Assembly (NCBI GenBank): GCA_012274225.1
Contig: JAAOZX010000175.1
Coordinates: forward strand, 1-33,860
From: Comamonadaceae bacterium
GTDB lineage: Bacteria; Pseudomonadota; Gammaproteobacteria; Burkholderiales; Burkholderiaceae_C
Length of the DNA stretch: 33,860 nucleotides
Reading direction: 5' to 3'
This document shows positions 1 to 16,298 of the stretch, piece by piece. Positions within the stretch are counted from its first letter, which is position 1; every line of letters starts with the position of its first letter. Made by a program: the position numbers and the translations under genes. The notes below the pieces were generated by a model. The model did not search any database and was not told the DNA's origin. It worked only from the letters and a program-made list of their open reading frames with translations.

Positions 1-580
1 CGATGTGACGAAGTCCGCCGACGTCAAGGCTCTGGTTGCTGCTGCCATGCAGCGCCACGGCAGGCTGGACGTGATGGTCAACAACGCGGGCTGGACCCAT
101 CGCAACCGGCCGGCGCTGGAAGTGAGCGAGGAAGAATTCGACAAGGTCTACGCGGTCAACATGAAGAGCATCTACCTGGCCACCGTCCATGCGGTGCCGG
201 CCTTCCGCGCCAACAAGGGCGGCAGCTTCATCAACATCGCGTCGACGGCCGGCATCCGACCGCGCCCGGGCCTCACCTGGTACAACGGCTCCAAGGGCGC
301 GGTGATCATCACCAGCAAGTCACTGGCTGCGGAGTTCGGACCCGAGAACATCCGGGTGAACTGCATCAACCCGGTTTTCAATCCCGATACCGGCCTTTCG
401 GCCGAGTTTGCCGGCGGACCGGTGGACGAAGCGCGCCGCGCCAAGTTCCTGGCGAGCATTCCGCTGGGGCGATTCTCCACGGCCCTGGACGTCGCCAATG
501 CCGCCTTGTACCTGGCCAGCGACGAGGCTTCCTTCATCTCCGGCATCTGCATCGAGGTCGACGGCGCTCGGTGCGCTTGA
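1..580 (+). CDS. SDR family oxidoreductase, 5' truncated by the window edge
   Basis: Contains NNAG, a YNGSKGA active-site-like motif, IRVNCINP and a C-terminal ISGICIEVDGA typical of classical SDRs. The N-terminal Rossmann TGxxxGIG lies outside the window. Confidence 0.9.
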   Translation, partial: DVTKSADVKALVAAAMQRHGRLDVMVNNAGWTHRNRPALEVSEEEFDKVYAVNMKSIYLATVHAVPAFRANKGGSFINIASTAGIRPRPGLTWYNGSKGAVIITSKSLAAEFGPENIRVNCINPVFNPDTGLSAEFAGGPVDEARRAKFLASIPLGRFSTALDVANAALYLASDEASFISGICIEVDGARCA

Positions 581-11701: not shown

Positions 11702-12289
11702 TCATCGCCGGTCCACCATCGCGTGGGCGATGGTGCCCAGGTCGACGTATTCCAGCTCGCTGCCGGCCGGCACGCCTCGCGCCAGCCGCGTGACGTTCAG
11801 GCCGCGGGCCCTGAGCGCTTCGCCGATGACATGGGCCGTGGCCTCGCCCTCCGCGGTGAAATTGGTCGCCAGGATCACTTCCTGCACCACCCCGTCGGTG
11901 GCGCGTTCGAAGAGCTTGGCCAGGCCGATGTCCTTGGGCCCGATGCCGTCCAGCGGGCTGAGCTTGCCCATCAGCACGAAGTACAGCCCGCGGAACGCCG
12001 CCGTCCGCTCCACCGCCGCCTGGTCGGCCGGTGTCTCGACCACGCACAGCTTGCTGCGATCGCGTTGTGGGTCCAGGCAGGTAGCGCACATCTCGTTTTC
12101 GGTGAAGGTGTGGCACAAGGTGCAGTGTGTGATGCGCGTGGCCGCCTGCTGCAGTGCCTGCGCCAGCACCTGCGCGCCGGCGCGGTCGTGCTGCAGCAGA
12201 TGGAAGGCCATGCGCGAAGCCGACCTGACGCCCACGCCCGGCAGCCGGCGCAGCGCCTCGATCAGGGCGTCGAGGGCGTTGGCGCTCAA
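11702..12289 (-). CDS. recR: Recombination protein RecR
   Basis: Probable TTG start at 12289 ([32 protein letters not shown]). [16 protein letters not shown] zinc finger, [16 protein letters not shown] Toprim. 4-nt TTGA overlap with the upstream ybaB stop. Confidence 0.95.
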
Positions 12290-12618
12290 AACGGCAGCTT
12301 CATCCCGCCCGGCAGGCCGGGCATGCCGGCGGTGATCTTGCCGAGCTTTTCCGACGATGTTTCCTCGGCCTTGCGCACCGCCGCGTTGAAAGCGGCCGCC
12401 ACCAGGTCCTCGAGCATGTCCTTGTCTTCCGCCAGCAGGCTGGGATCGATGGTCACCCGCTTGACGTCGTGCTTGCAGGTCATCACCACCTTGACGAGGC
12501 CGGCGCCGGACTCGCCGGATACCTCCACCAGCGCCAGTTCGTCCTGGGCCTTTTTCAAGTTGTCCTGCATGGCCTGGGCCTGCTTCATGAGGCCGGCCAG
12601 CTGTCCCTTGTTGAACAT
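12286..12618 (-). CDS. ybaB: YbaB/EbfC family nucleoid-associated protein
   Basis: [29 protein letters not shown]...VTIDPSLL...[20 protein letters not shown]...[13 protein letters not shown]; dnaX-ybaB-recR synteny. Confidence 0.96.
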
Positions 12619-12635: not shown

Positions 12636-14471
12636 CTAATCGGGTAGTGGGTTGGTCGATACCGGCTTGATGCTGCCCGGAACGATTTTCGCGCCAAAGT
12701 CTCGCATCATCGCCTGAATAAAGGGGTCGCCGTGGATGGCCTCCTCGGCCGCCCGCTGTCTTTCGGCTTGCGCGGCCGCCTGCCGGCGCGCCGGGCTGTC
12801 GGTCACGACCCCCACTTCGACGCTGAGGTTCACCGCGTGACCGGCCGCGTGCAGCGCCGCGCGCAGGCGCTCGCGGCTGGCGGACTGGTTGAGCGACTCG
12901 CGCTCGACCCGCAGCATCCAGTGATCCGGGTCGCGCGCCACCAGTTGGGATTGCAGGGCCAGCTCCCGCACCAGCGCCGCCACCGCTTCGCGGGCCACCA
13001 GGGCGGCTACCGTGGCCTGCCAGAAATCGCCTTCTTCCGTGGGTACCAGCCGGCCGGCCGGTGCGGCCGGCTCGCGAGTCGACTCGGCCTGCAAGTGCAC
13101 GGGCACCCGCACCATCTCGCTGGCGGGCTGACCGTTCAGCGTGCGAGGATGCGGCCTGGGCGCGGCCGCCTGCGGGCGTTGCTCCACCACCGGAAGAACG
13201 CGACCCGGAGGTGCGCCGGCAACTGCCTCGATAGCTGCCGGGATGCGCGCTGGCTCGGCCACAGCAGTAGTGGGCATTGGGGCAGCTTGAACGCGGGTGC
13301 CGGGCGGCGCCGCGGCCGCACCGGCATCACTCAGAGTTTTTTTTTCCGCTGAGCCTGCGGCAGCCTCGGAACGCGGCGCATGGAAGGCAAGCAGCCGCAA
13401 CAGCACCATGGTCAGCGCGGAGTACTCGTCGGGCGCCAGGCCGAGTTCGGAGCGTCCATGCAGGCACATGCTGTAGAGCAACTGGGTTTCGTCGGCCGGC
13501 ATCCGCTGCGCCAGCCTCGCAATTTCGGCAGACTCCGGGTCACGCGGGTCCACGGCACCCGGCACGGCCTGGATCACGGCCATGCGCTGCAGGATGGCGC
13601 TCATCTCTTCCAGCGCGGACGCAGCGCTCAGGCCATGCAGCCGCAGCGATTCGGAAATCTCCACCACGGTCTTGCCGTCGCCATGCGCCAGTGCCTCGAT
13701 CAGCCTGAAGACATGGGTGCGATCGACACTGCCCAGCATCTGCCGCACCGCGGCTTCCTGCAGCGTGCCGCCGCCGAACGCGATGGCCTGGTCGGTCAAC
13801 GACAGCGCATCGCGCATCGAGCCGCGGGCCGCGCGCGCCAGCAGGCGCAAGGCCTGCGGATTGGCCTCCACGCCTTCGGCACGCAGTACCTGAACCAGAT
13901 GCTCCTCAATGGTCTCGGGCGCCATCGGCCGCAGGTTGAATTGCAGGCAGCGCGAGAGCACTGTCACTGGCACCTTCTGCGGATCGGTGGTCGCCAGCAC
14001 GAACTTGAGGTACTCCGGCGGCTCCTCGAGGGTCTTGAGCATCGCGTTGAAGGCATGCCCGGTGAGCATGTGCACCTCGTCGATCATGAAGACCTTGAAG
14101 CGCCCCTGCACCGGCTTGTAGACCGCCTGCTCCAGCAGCGATTGCACTTCGTCGACGCCGCGATTGGAAGCGGCATCCAGCTCGGTGTAATCGATGAAAC
14201 GACCGCCGTCGATGTCGCGGCAGGCCTGGCAAACCCCGCAGGGCGTCGCGGTGATACCGCCGTGCCCGTCCGGCCCCTGGCAGTTCAGCGACTTCGCCAG
14301 GATGCGCGCCACGGTGGTCTTGCCCACGCCTCGGGTGCCCGTGAACAGGTAGGCATGATGCAGCCGCTGCTGCGTCAGCGCATTGCTGAGCGCCCGCACG
14401 ACATGGTCCTGGCCGACCATTTCGAGAAATGTTTTCGGCCGGTACTTGCGGGCGAGCACGAGGTAGGACAT
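12636..14471 (-). CDS. dnaX: DNA polymerase III subunits gamma/tau
   Basis: [88 protein letters not shown]-terminal tau extension. Confidence 0.98.
13298..13345 (-). promoter_or_regulatory. Putative dnaX frameshift/transcript-slippage site: A9 run plus downstream hairpin
   Basis: Minus strand GAA AAA AAA ACT CTG AGT GAT with nine A (13337-13345). Then TGCCGG-T-GCGGC-CGCGGC-GCCGC-CCGGCA (13298-13326) forms an 11-bp GC stem with one bulge. Confidence 0.65.
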
Positions 14472-14542: not shown

Positions 14543-14640
14543 TTGACGGGCCTCCCCGCATGGTGAAGCGGCCAACCGGGTCAGGTGGGGAACCAAGCAG
14601 CCCTAACTGTGGAGCCAGTGCCGGGGGTAAGGCTCGTCAA
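14543..14640 (+). ncRNA. ffs: Small bacterial SRP RNA (4.5S RNA)
   Basis: Core ACCGGGTCAGGTGGGGAACCAAGCAGCCCTAA matches the SRP domain IV GGUCAGGU..GGAA..AAGCAGCC. Ends TTGACGGGCCT/AAGGCTCGTCAA pair. Located next to dnaX. Confidence 0.92.
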
Positions 14641-14672
14641 CCTTCTTTGGCTCCGCCCGACGCGACGCAGAC

Positions 14673-16298
14673 ATGCGCCGCACATTGTTGATGCGTAGCC
14701 CCAGTCCCCGACGCGCTTACATGCTCTCCCCCATCCGATTGGCGGCGGCGATGCTGCTGAGTCTGCTGCTGTTGACCGTGGCGATGGCGGCCGCGGCCTC
14801 GCCGCTGTGGGTGGATCAGGGCCGCCCCACCGACGCAGCCCGCCAGGCGGTGGCAGTGCTGGCATCCGCAGCCGACGACGGGCTGCAGCCCGAGGACTAC
14901 GATGCCGCCCCATTGGCGCAGGCCCTGGATCAAGCCGCGCGGGGCGCTGGGCTCGACACTATGGCAGCCACCCGGCTGGACAACGCGCTGAGCGCGGCCG
15001 TACAACGCTACCTGAGCGACTTGCATTCCGGCCGCGTGGACCCTCGTCGCATCCACGCGGACTTCTCCATGCCCGCGCCCGAGCGCATCGATCCTTCGAG
15101 TTACCTGAGCGCCGCGCTGGCAGGCCCCAGCCTGGCCGATGCGCTCCACGCGGCCGCACCCCACGTGCCGCTCTATGCGAGCCTGCGAGCGCAACTGGCC
15201 CGCTACCGCGCCCTGGCCGGTCACCCGGCCTGGGCCACGCCGCTGCCCGCGCTGCCCGGGCGCAAGCTCGAGCCCGGAACGGCCTGGGCCGGCTTGCCGC
15301 TTCTCACGCAGCGGCTGGTCGCTCTGGGCGACCTGCCGCAGGGCACGCCTGCGCCCGAGGTTTATGACGATGTGATGCAGGGGGGTGTGATGGCATTCCA
15401 GCAGCGCCACGCCCTGACGCCCGACGGGGTGCTCGGCAAGGGCACGCTGGCGCAACTGGTCGTCTCGACCGCGGACCGCGTACGCCAGATCGAACTGGCC
15501 ATGGAGCGCCTGCGCTGGACGCCGCTGTTGCGCGCACCGCGCATGATCGTGGTCAACGTGCCGGAATTCGTGCTGCGTGCCTATGAATTGCACGAAGGCA
15601 AGGTATTCGTGCGGCTCACCATGAATGTCATCGTGGGCAAGGCCTTGAAGACGCAAACCCCGCTGTTCGACGAGGACATGCGTTTCATCGAGTTCAGCCC
15701 CTACTGGAACGTGCCGCCGTCCATTGCCCGCGCCGAGACTGTGCCGCGGCTTCGGCGCGATCCGGCGTATTTCGAGCAGGAAGGTTTTGAGTTCGTCAGT
15801 GGTGGCGGTGAGGTGCACACCACGCTGTCCGCGCAGGACCTCGACGCCGTGGCGCGGGGCCAGATGCGCATACGCCAGCGACCCGGACCGCAGAACGCGC
15901 TGGGCGACATCAAGTTCGTGTTTCCCAACAACAGCAACATCTATCTGCACCATACGCCGGCGACCGGGCTTTTCCAGCGCGATCGGCGCGACCTCAGCCA
16001 TGGATGCATCCGCGTGGAAGAGCCCGTGGCGCTGGCGCAGTTCGTGCTGCAGAACGCCCCTGAATGGACCGAAGCGCGCATCCGCGCCGCGATGGGACAA
16101 GGCCAATCGTCGACCCTGCGCCTGGCCGAGGCGCTGCCGGTGGTGATTGCGTACAGCACCGCGATCGTCAAGAACGGCAAGGTGAATTTCTTTGCCGACA
16201 TTTACGGACACGATCGCCTGCTGGATCGGGCATTGCGGGAACAGGCCCAGGCAAGGGCACAGCAGCGTAGCGCCGATCCCGTGCCTGGTGCAGAATGA
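14673..16298 (+). CDS. L,D-transpeptidase family protein (LdtD/YcbB-like); start may be 14721
   Basis: Signal/TM segment, peptidoglycan-binding-like segment, and the YkuD-type catalytic motif YLHHTPATGLFQRDRRDLSHGCIRVEEPVALAQ. Confidence 0.93.
   Translation: MRRTLLMRSPSPRRAYMLSPIRLAAAMLLSLLLLTVAMAAAASPLWVDQGRPTDAARQAVAVLASAADDGLQPEDYDAAPLAQALDQAARGAGLDTMAATRLDNALSAAVQRYLSDLHSGRVDPRRIHADFSMPAPERIDPSSYLSAALAGPSLADALHAAAPHVPLYASLRAQLARYRALAGHPAWATPLPALPGRKLEPGTAWAGLPLLTQRLVALGDLPQGTPAPEVYDDVMQGGVMAFQQRHALTPDGVLGKGTLAQLVVSTADRVRQIELAMERLRWTPLLRAPRMIVVNVPEFVLRAYELHEGKVFVRLTMNVIVGKALKTQTPLFDEDMRFIEFSPYWNVPPSIARAETVPRLRRDPAYFEQEGFEFVSGGGEVHTTLSAQDLDAVARGQMRIRQRPGPQNALGDIKFVFPNNSNIYLHHTPATGLFQRDRRDLSHGCIRVEEPVALAQFVLQNAPEWTEARIRAAMGQGQSSTLRLAEALPVVIAYSTAIVKNGKVNFFADIYGHDRLLDRALREQAQARAQQRSADPVPGAE

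Follow-up and report, generated by a model that had tools for sequence, protein, structure and literature searches.

A nine-adenine run conserved in the dnaX genes of Comamonadaceae as a probable site of Thermus-type transcriptional slippage

The need for gamma, the short form of DnaX, has long been debated. In Thermus thermophilus, dnaX is recoded by transcriptional slippage at a run of nine A that is followed by stops in both alternative frames (Larsen et al. 2000, as described in PMC1088944 and PMC5009743). Frameshifting at the Thermus run is about 50%, such that roughly half of the product is short (PMC1088944), and the Atkins review connects tRNA-Lys(CUU) with the reliance of Thermus on slippage by the polymerase (PMC5009743). 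Escherichia coli dnaX makes gamma by programmed -1 ribosomal frameshifting at A AAA AAG. Another arrangement is found in the Chlorobium-type two-ORF dnaX genes described with GeneTack, in which a run of A7-A10 serves as the slip site, probably by transcriptional realignment; that study counts 17 dnaX genes of the two-ORF type, names none from Comamonadaceae where it discusses dnaX, and gives frameshifting of 10, 40 and 63% for cassettes with 7, 9 and 11 A in E. coli (PMC3711429). According to a 2012 review, dnaX lacks a frameshift signature in most bacteria other than enterobacteria and Thermus, and these bacteria may not make gamma (PMC3290774); Baranov et al. considered slippage that yields a truncated product hard to predict comparatively (PMC1088944). 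The literature that we searched held nothing relevant on dnaX recoding in Comamonas, Acidovorax, Variovorax, Bordetella or Burkholderia, and we found no report of the site described below in Comamonadaceae in this largely open-access body of literature. The site is of a known kind; its Comamonadaceae-wide occurrence appears to be new.

The stretch of DNA that we analysed (33,860 nt; the window) forms a single contig in the 4.17-Mb, 82% complete assembly of a Ramlibacter-like (Comamonadaceae) MAG. Its dnaX gene (12636..14471, minus strand) is an open frame of tau length, 611 aa, assigned to the DNA polymerase III clamp-loader subunit from its Pfam domains and its match to E. coli tau/gamma, the nearest solved relative (E 4e-119). 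The closest named homologues all belong to Comamonadaceae: Ramlibacter, Caenimonas, Rhodoferax, Variovorax, Curvibacter, Polaromonas, Acidovorax and Comamonas. Pfam matches on the minus strand delimit a delta2/AAA domain (residues 21-183), a lid domain (residues 188-235), clamp-loader domain III (PF12169; residues 238-363, 13383..13760) and the alpha-binding tau domain V (PF12170; residues 480-600, 12672..13034). A YbaB/EbfC gene, the usual neighbour of dnaX, follows it at 12286-12618. The gene that adjoins dnaX upstream runs on the opposite strand and encodes a small SRP RNA (Rfam RF00169, 64 bits; 14545-14641, plus strand); after it comes an L,D-transpeptidase-like gene (14673-16298, plus strand).

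Read directly from the minus strand, positions 13346-13326 are GAA AAA AAA ACT CTG AGT GAT, with a GCG codon before them. The first four of these codons (E376 K377 K378 T379; 13335..13346) contain a run of exactly nine A at 13337..13345, as an earlier note on this DNA had stated, and place an A AAA AAA heptamer in phase. That note also described stops in both alternative frames, and both are there: a +1-frame TGA at 13331..13333, 3 nt after the run, and a -1-frame TGA at 13327..13329, 7 nt after it. Recomputing the two products that the note had set against the 611 aa of tau gave the same lengths. The 381-aa product (...EKK-NSE-stop) would follow from the gain of one A or from a -1 ribosomal slip on A AAA AAA, the 379-aa product (...EKK-L-stop) from the loss of one A, and a 380-aa product (...EKKK-L-stop) from the gain of two. 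The note was right, too, that the cut falls just after domain III, since the slip lysines, residues 377-378, come after the end of that domain at residue 363 and before domain V. Domain III is the last folded part common to tau and the predicted gamma, and by the Pfam coordinates the predicted truncation keeps the clamp-loader core and drops the alpha-binding domain V, which is found in tau. Residues 1-367 of the window's DnaX align with the 373-residue E. coli gamma that has been crystallised (1jr3).

The locus resembles T. thermophilus dnaX in having nine sense-strand A inside the dnaX frame with tau as the zero-frame product, in having close stops in both other frames that would truncate the protein to a clamp-loader form, and in the presence of tRNA-Lys(CUU). 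Unlike in Thermus, which belongs to another phylum and has its run seven-eighths of the way along the gene, the run here lies about 60% along, just after domain III. With E. coli the locus shares the gene itself, a gamma predicted to arise from inside the tau frame, an A-rich slip site and a -1 stop soon after it; it differs in having A AAA AAA within A9 rather than A AAA AAG, in the constraint on its +1 stop, and in having no internal Shine-Dalgarno element and no conserved stem-loop. The Chlorobium-type genes of the GeneTack study (PMC3711429) likewise have a poly-A slip site; in those genes, however, the zero frame encodes gamma and a slip is required for tau, whereas here tau is in the zero frame.

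To ask what is conserved, we used 157 distinct site-bearing Comamonadaceae dnaX genes, which share ancestry and so represent far fewer than 157 independent trials. Every one of them reads NAA AAA AAA ANN, with A9 in 156 and A10 in one (the run is in all of the first 100 distinct homologues, as A9 in 99 and A10 in one). The first codon of the site is GAA in 145 genes, CAA in 11 and AAA in one, and the last is ACT, ACA, ACG, ACC, AGC or AGT. The run lies 13-127 nt past the end of domain III (median 31), in one codon phase, within an otherwise hypervariable linker where conservation outside the site is largely confined to an alanine preceding it and a leucine following it. Of 162 genes encoding a DnaX that matches the window's with 76% identity or more in the N-terminal part, 155 have the run, which is mostly absent below 76%; its presence as A9 needs eight changes on a tree of 207 rows.

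The sole conserved peptide of the linker is E/Q-K-K-T/S-L, and it could be argued that the selected feature is a protein-level motif, E-K-K-T-L, with the A's an incidental choice of codons. Synonymous sites already contradict this explanation, which we regard as scarcely credible. The slip lysines are AAA in 314 of 314 codons, with zero synonymous changes on the tree, whereas lysine elsewhere in the same genes is AAA in 35% and AAG in 65% of cases; eight protein-invariant lysines elsewhere in the gene each need 8-40 AAA/AAG changes on that tree, with AAG the commoner codon at all eight. The earlier note had held that its reading would be refuted if close relatives had lost the A run at synonymous positions; they have not, as AAG occurs at 0 of the 314 slip lysines. 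Serine at the fourth codon is AGY in 22 of 22 cases, whereas linker serine is otherwise 73% TCN. The first A's of the run are encoded with E, Q or K only, residues that swap solely via NAA, and the ninth with threonine or AGY-serine, never with TCN-serine. Moreover, the leucine is replaced by valine GTA where a stop is thereby kept. These codon choices (AAA only, AGY serine, an NAA first codon) indicate that the constraint is on nine A and not on EKKT.

Homopolymers mutate and are miscalled, and one long-read-like assembly, G014, has A7 at this place (gene L138), as might be expected if the run were a hypermutable, phase-variable tract of DNA, a sequencing artefact or the product of chance. 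The conservation of the run already contradicts these explanations, which we consider very improbable: its length is nine in 156 of 157 genes drawn from many independent assemblies, and there are only five A9 runs in the whole 4.17-Mb MAG, with none longer. We also rejected chance or genome-wide richness in poly-A as the origin of the run. Well-studied bacteria cannot do without tau function, so that a phase-variable tract switching tau off would be costly. A GC stem follows three of the other four A9 runs of the MAG and is terminator-like for the opposite strand. For the dnaX run itself, we rejected a plus-strand intrinsic terminator (a hairpin and then T9), as about 10 nt separate the stem from the T run.

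In 152 of the 157 genes, both alternative frames meet a stop no more than 30 nt from the run, against 9.6% expected from random positions in the same linkers. In the +1 frame, 89% of homologues have a stop exactly where the window has it, 3 nt past the run, and 99% have one within 30 nt (23% expected), part of this signal coinciding with the conserved leucine codon; the -1-frame stop is at the window's exact position in 50% and within 30 nt in 97% (26% expected). On the tree, the identity or position of the stop shows at least 28 changes in the +1 frame and at least 55 in the -1 frame, and the stops are therefore not frozen relics. Indeed, TAA and TAG take over from TGA in some homologues, and where the immediate +1 stop has been lost there is nearly always a further one 6-30 nt away. 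The base after CTG at the site is A in 119 of 121 cases, as compared with 13% elsewhere. CTA, a rare codon that accounts for 2% of leucine codons at other places, turns up where it creates a +1 TAA or TAG, and so does GTA. Across the homologue set, the +1 stop is constrained at least as much as the -1 stop.

The constraint on the +1 stop bears directly on whether the ribosome or RNA polymerase slips. Programmed -1 ribosomal frameshifting of the E. coli type on A AAA AAA, aided by a hairpin, would make the 381-aa gamma; the heptamer is in phase and is followed by a -1 stop in every gene, downstream structure is on average slightly above background, and the ribosome, too, can slip on long A runs. 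Nevertheless, we judge this explanation unlikely, since it does not account for a +1 stop conserved in nearly all homologues, nor for the ninth A. A -1 ribosomal heptamer would require just seven A, and the ninth falls outside any such heptamer. The absence of AAG is similarly unexplained, given that in E. coli shifting is more frequent when AAG is the last codon (PMC5009743). If A's are added or dropped, by contrast, there is a reason for a +1 stop, for which pure -1 frameshifting gives none; what favours slippage by RNA polymerase is that it accounts for both the +1 stop and the ninth A, which would otherwise have no explanation. We therefore regard RNA polymerase rather than the ribosome as the likely agent of slippage, and the better-supported one, although -1 ribosomal slippage on A AAA AAA may be a second source of the 381-aa product. 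Further weight against the ribosomal explanation comes from three relatives with A AAA AAG and a near -1 stop, two from the family (L232 and L269) and one from the class (L157), which have no A9 and have their +1 stops 22, 121 and 37 nt away, respectively; these appear to be ribosomal sites of the E. coli type, though three cases are anecdotal.

In a ribosomal signal of the E. coli type, stimulatory elements accompany the heptamer. The earlier note had reported a GC hairpin after the run, and the structure it described is present: an 11-bp stem-loop with one bulge (13298..13326, minus strand; MFE -22.2 kcal/mol) that starts 11 nt after the heptamer. As a component of the system, the hairpin did not stand up. 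It is no stronger than composition predicts (z = 0.03 at +5..65, and z -1.1 to -1.4 in the best 40-nt windows, by dinucleotide shuffles), and in an alignment of the window with its nearest relative, L003, whose DnaX N-terminal part is 95% identical, its arms are not kept. Of the features whose conservation the note had suggested testing in related dnaX genes, A9 is kept, both stops are kept through many independent changes, and the hairpin is not kept. We searched the 157 genes for a shared or homologous downstream stem with 40-nt sliding folds, 60-nt fixed folds and a best-stem search, and found none. Downstream structure is slightly enriched on average in these genes (z -0.52 at +5..65, as compared with -0.07 to -0.41 elsewhere), with a best-stem score of at least 24 just downstream in 15%, versus 8% in control stretches. 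This slight excess could reflect some ribosomal contribution, but with only a weak average effect and no shared stem, we rejected the hairpin as a stimulator. Similarly, a search 4-24 nt upstream of the heptamer for an internal Shine-Dalgarno element gave a strong match in 2-3 of the 157 genes, like control stretches.

Five genes in a small Ramlibacter subset (L008, L011, L018, L031 and L041) have a homologous, partly covarying stem of 9-11 bp, 15-35 nt past A9, for example GCTGGGGT...ACCCCAGC. This stem is lineage-specific, and we rejected it as a general stimulator.

The window's genome has a tRNA-Lys(CUU) gene, which weighs against ribosomal slippage. Such genes are found in 111 of 151 family genomes, however, both with and without A9, so their presence fits slippage by RNA polymerase but does not discriminate. 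Most relatives have one or two; in one there are four tandem tRNA-Lys(CUU)-like genes (G329:C1:924974-925381).

At the level of sequence, the constraint falls demonstrably on the nine A, their phase and the nearby stops in both alternative frames, and it is close to certain from these patterns that A9 is a selected recoding site. We propose, with a probability of roughly 0.8, that Thermus-type transcriptional slippage at A9 gives a gamma of about 379-381 aa, comprising domains I-III, beside tau. RNA polymerase would slip on A9 during transcription of dnaX, giving mRNAs with nine A and also with 8, 10, 11 or other numbers, each of which would be translated by ribosomes in the ordinary way. Transcripts with nine A, or with nine plus or minus a multiple of three, would yield the 611-aa tau with its alpha-binding domain V; all other counts would lead to a stop within a few codons and hence to the gamma-like protein. 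The comparative evidence supports the earlier note's preference for a Thermus-like over an E. coli-like arrangement, and from it we infer that slippage takes place in the cell, that its agent is RNA polymerase and not the ribosome, and that the cell produces gamma and puts it to use.

Letter-for-letter conservation of A9, with stops in both wrong frames, across almost the whole of this family of soil and water bacteria strongly suggests that slips by RNA polymerase are used to make a shorter clamp-loader protein. On balance, it appears probable that the whole family Comamonadaceae makes gamma by RNA-polymerase slippage at A9, the Thermus solution, in a phylum with known ribosomal recoding of dnaX; the few relatives that seem to carry an E. 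coli-type A AAA AAG instead, in roughly that position, raise the prospect that the mechanism may switch under constant selection for gamma. The family-wide constraint at the level of single letters argues that selection for a short DnaX operates in one more large lineage, and that the route there is a different one. In addition, synonymous-site constraint together with dual-frame stops achieves here a comparative prediction of truncating slippage. The family has culturable members (Ramlibacter, Variovorax, Acidovorax, Comamonas and Rhodoferax), making the proposal testable with existing RNA-seq data.

Two further observations concern runs that depart from the family pattern. The A7 of L138 (G014:C1:1762500-1764700) stands in place of A9 in a Ramlibacter-like genome in two contigs, such that the -1-type stop falls in the zero frame; it is most likely a long-read homopolymer miscall, although the gene may alternatively be read as a two-ORF (Chlorobium-like) dnaX. 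Lastly, runs of A9 or A10 occur at other positions of the linker in distant members of the order or class (L151, L156, L159, L212, L301, L313, L319, L335, L338, L339 and L356); several of these have near stops in both frames, possibly through repeated origin or through chance in AT-rich sequence.
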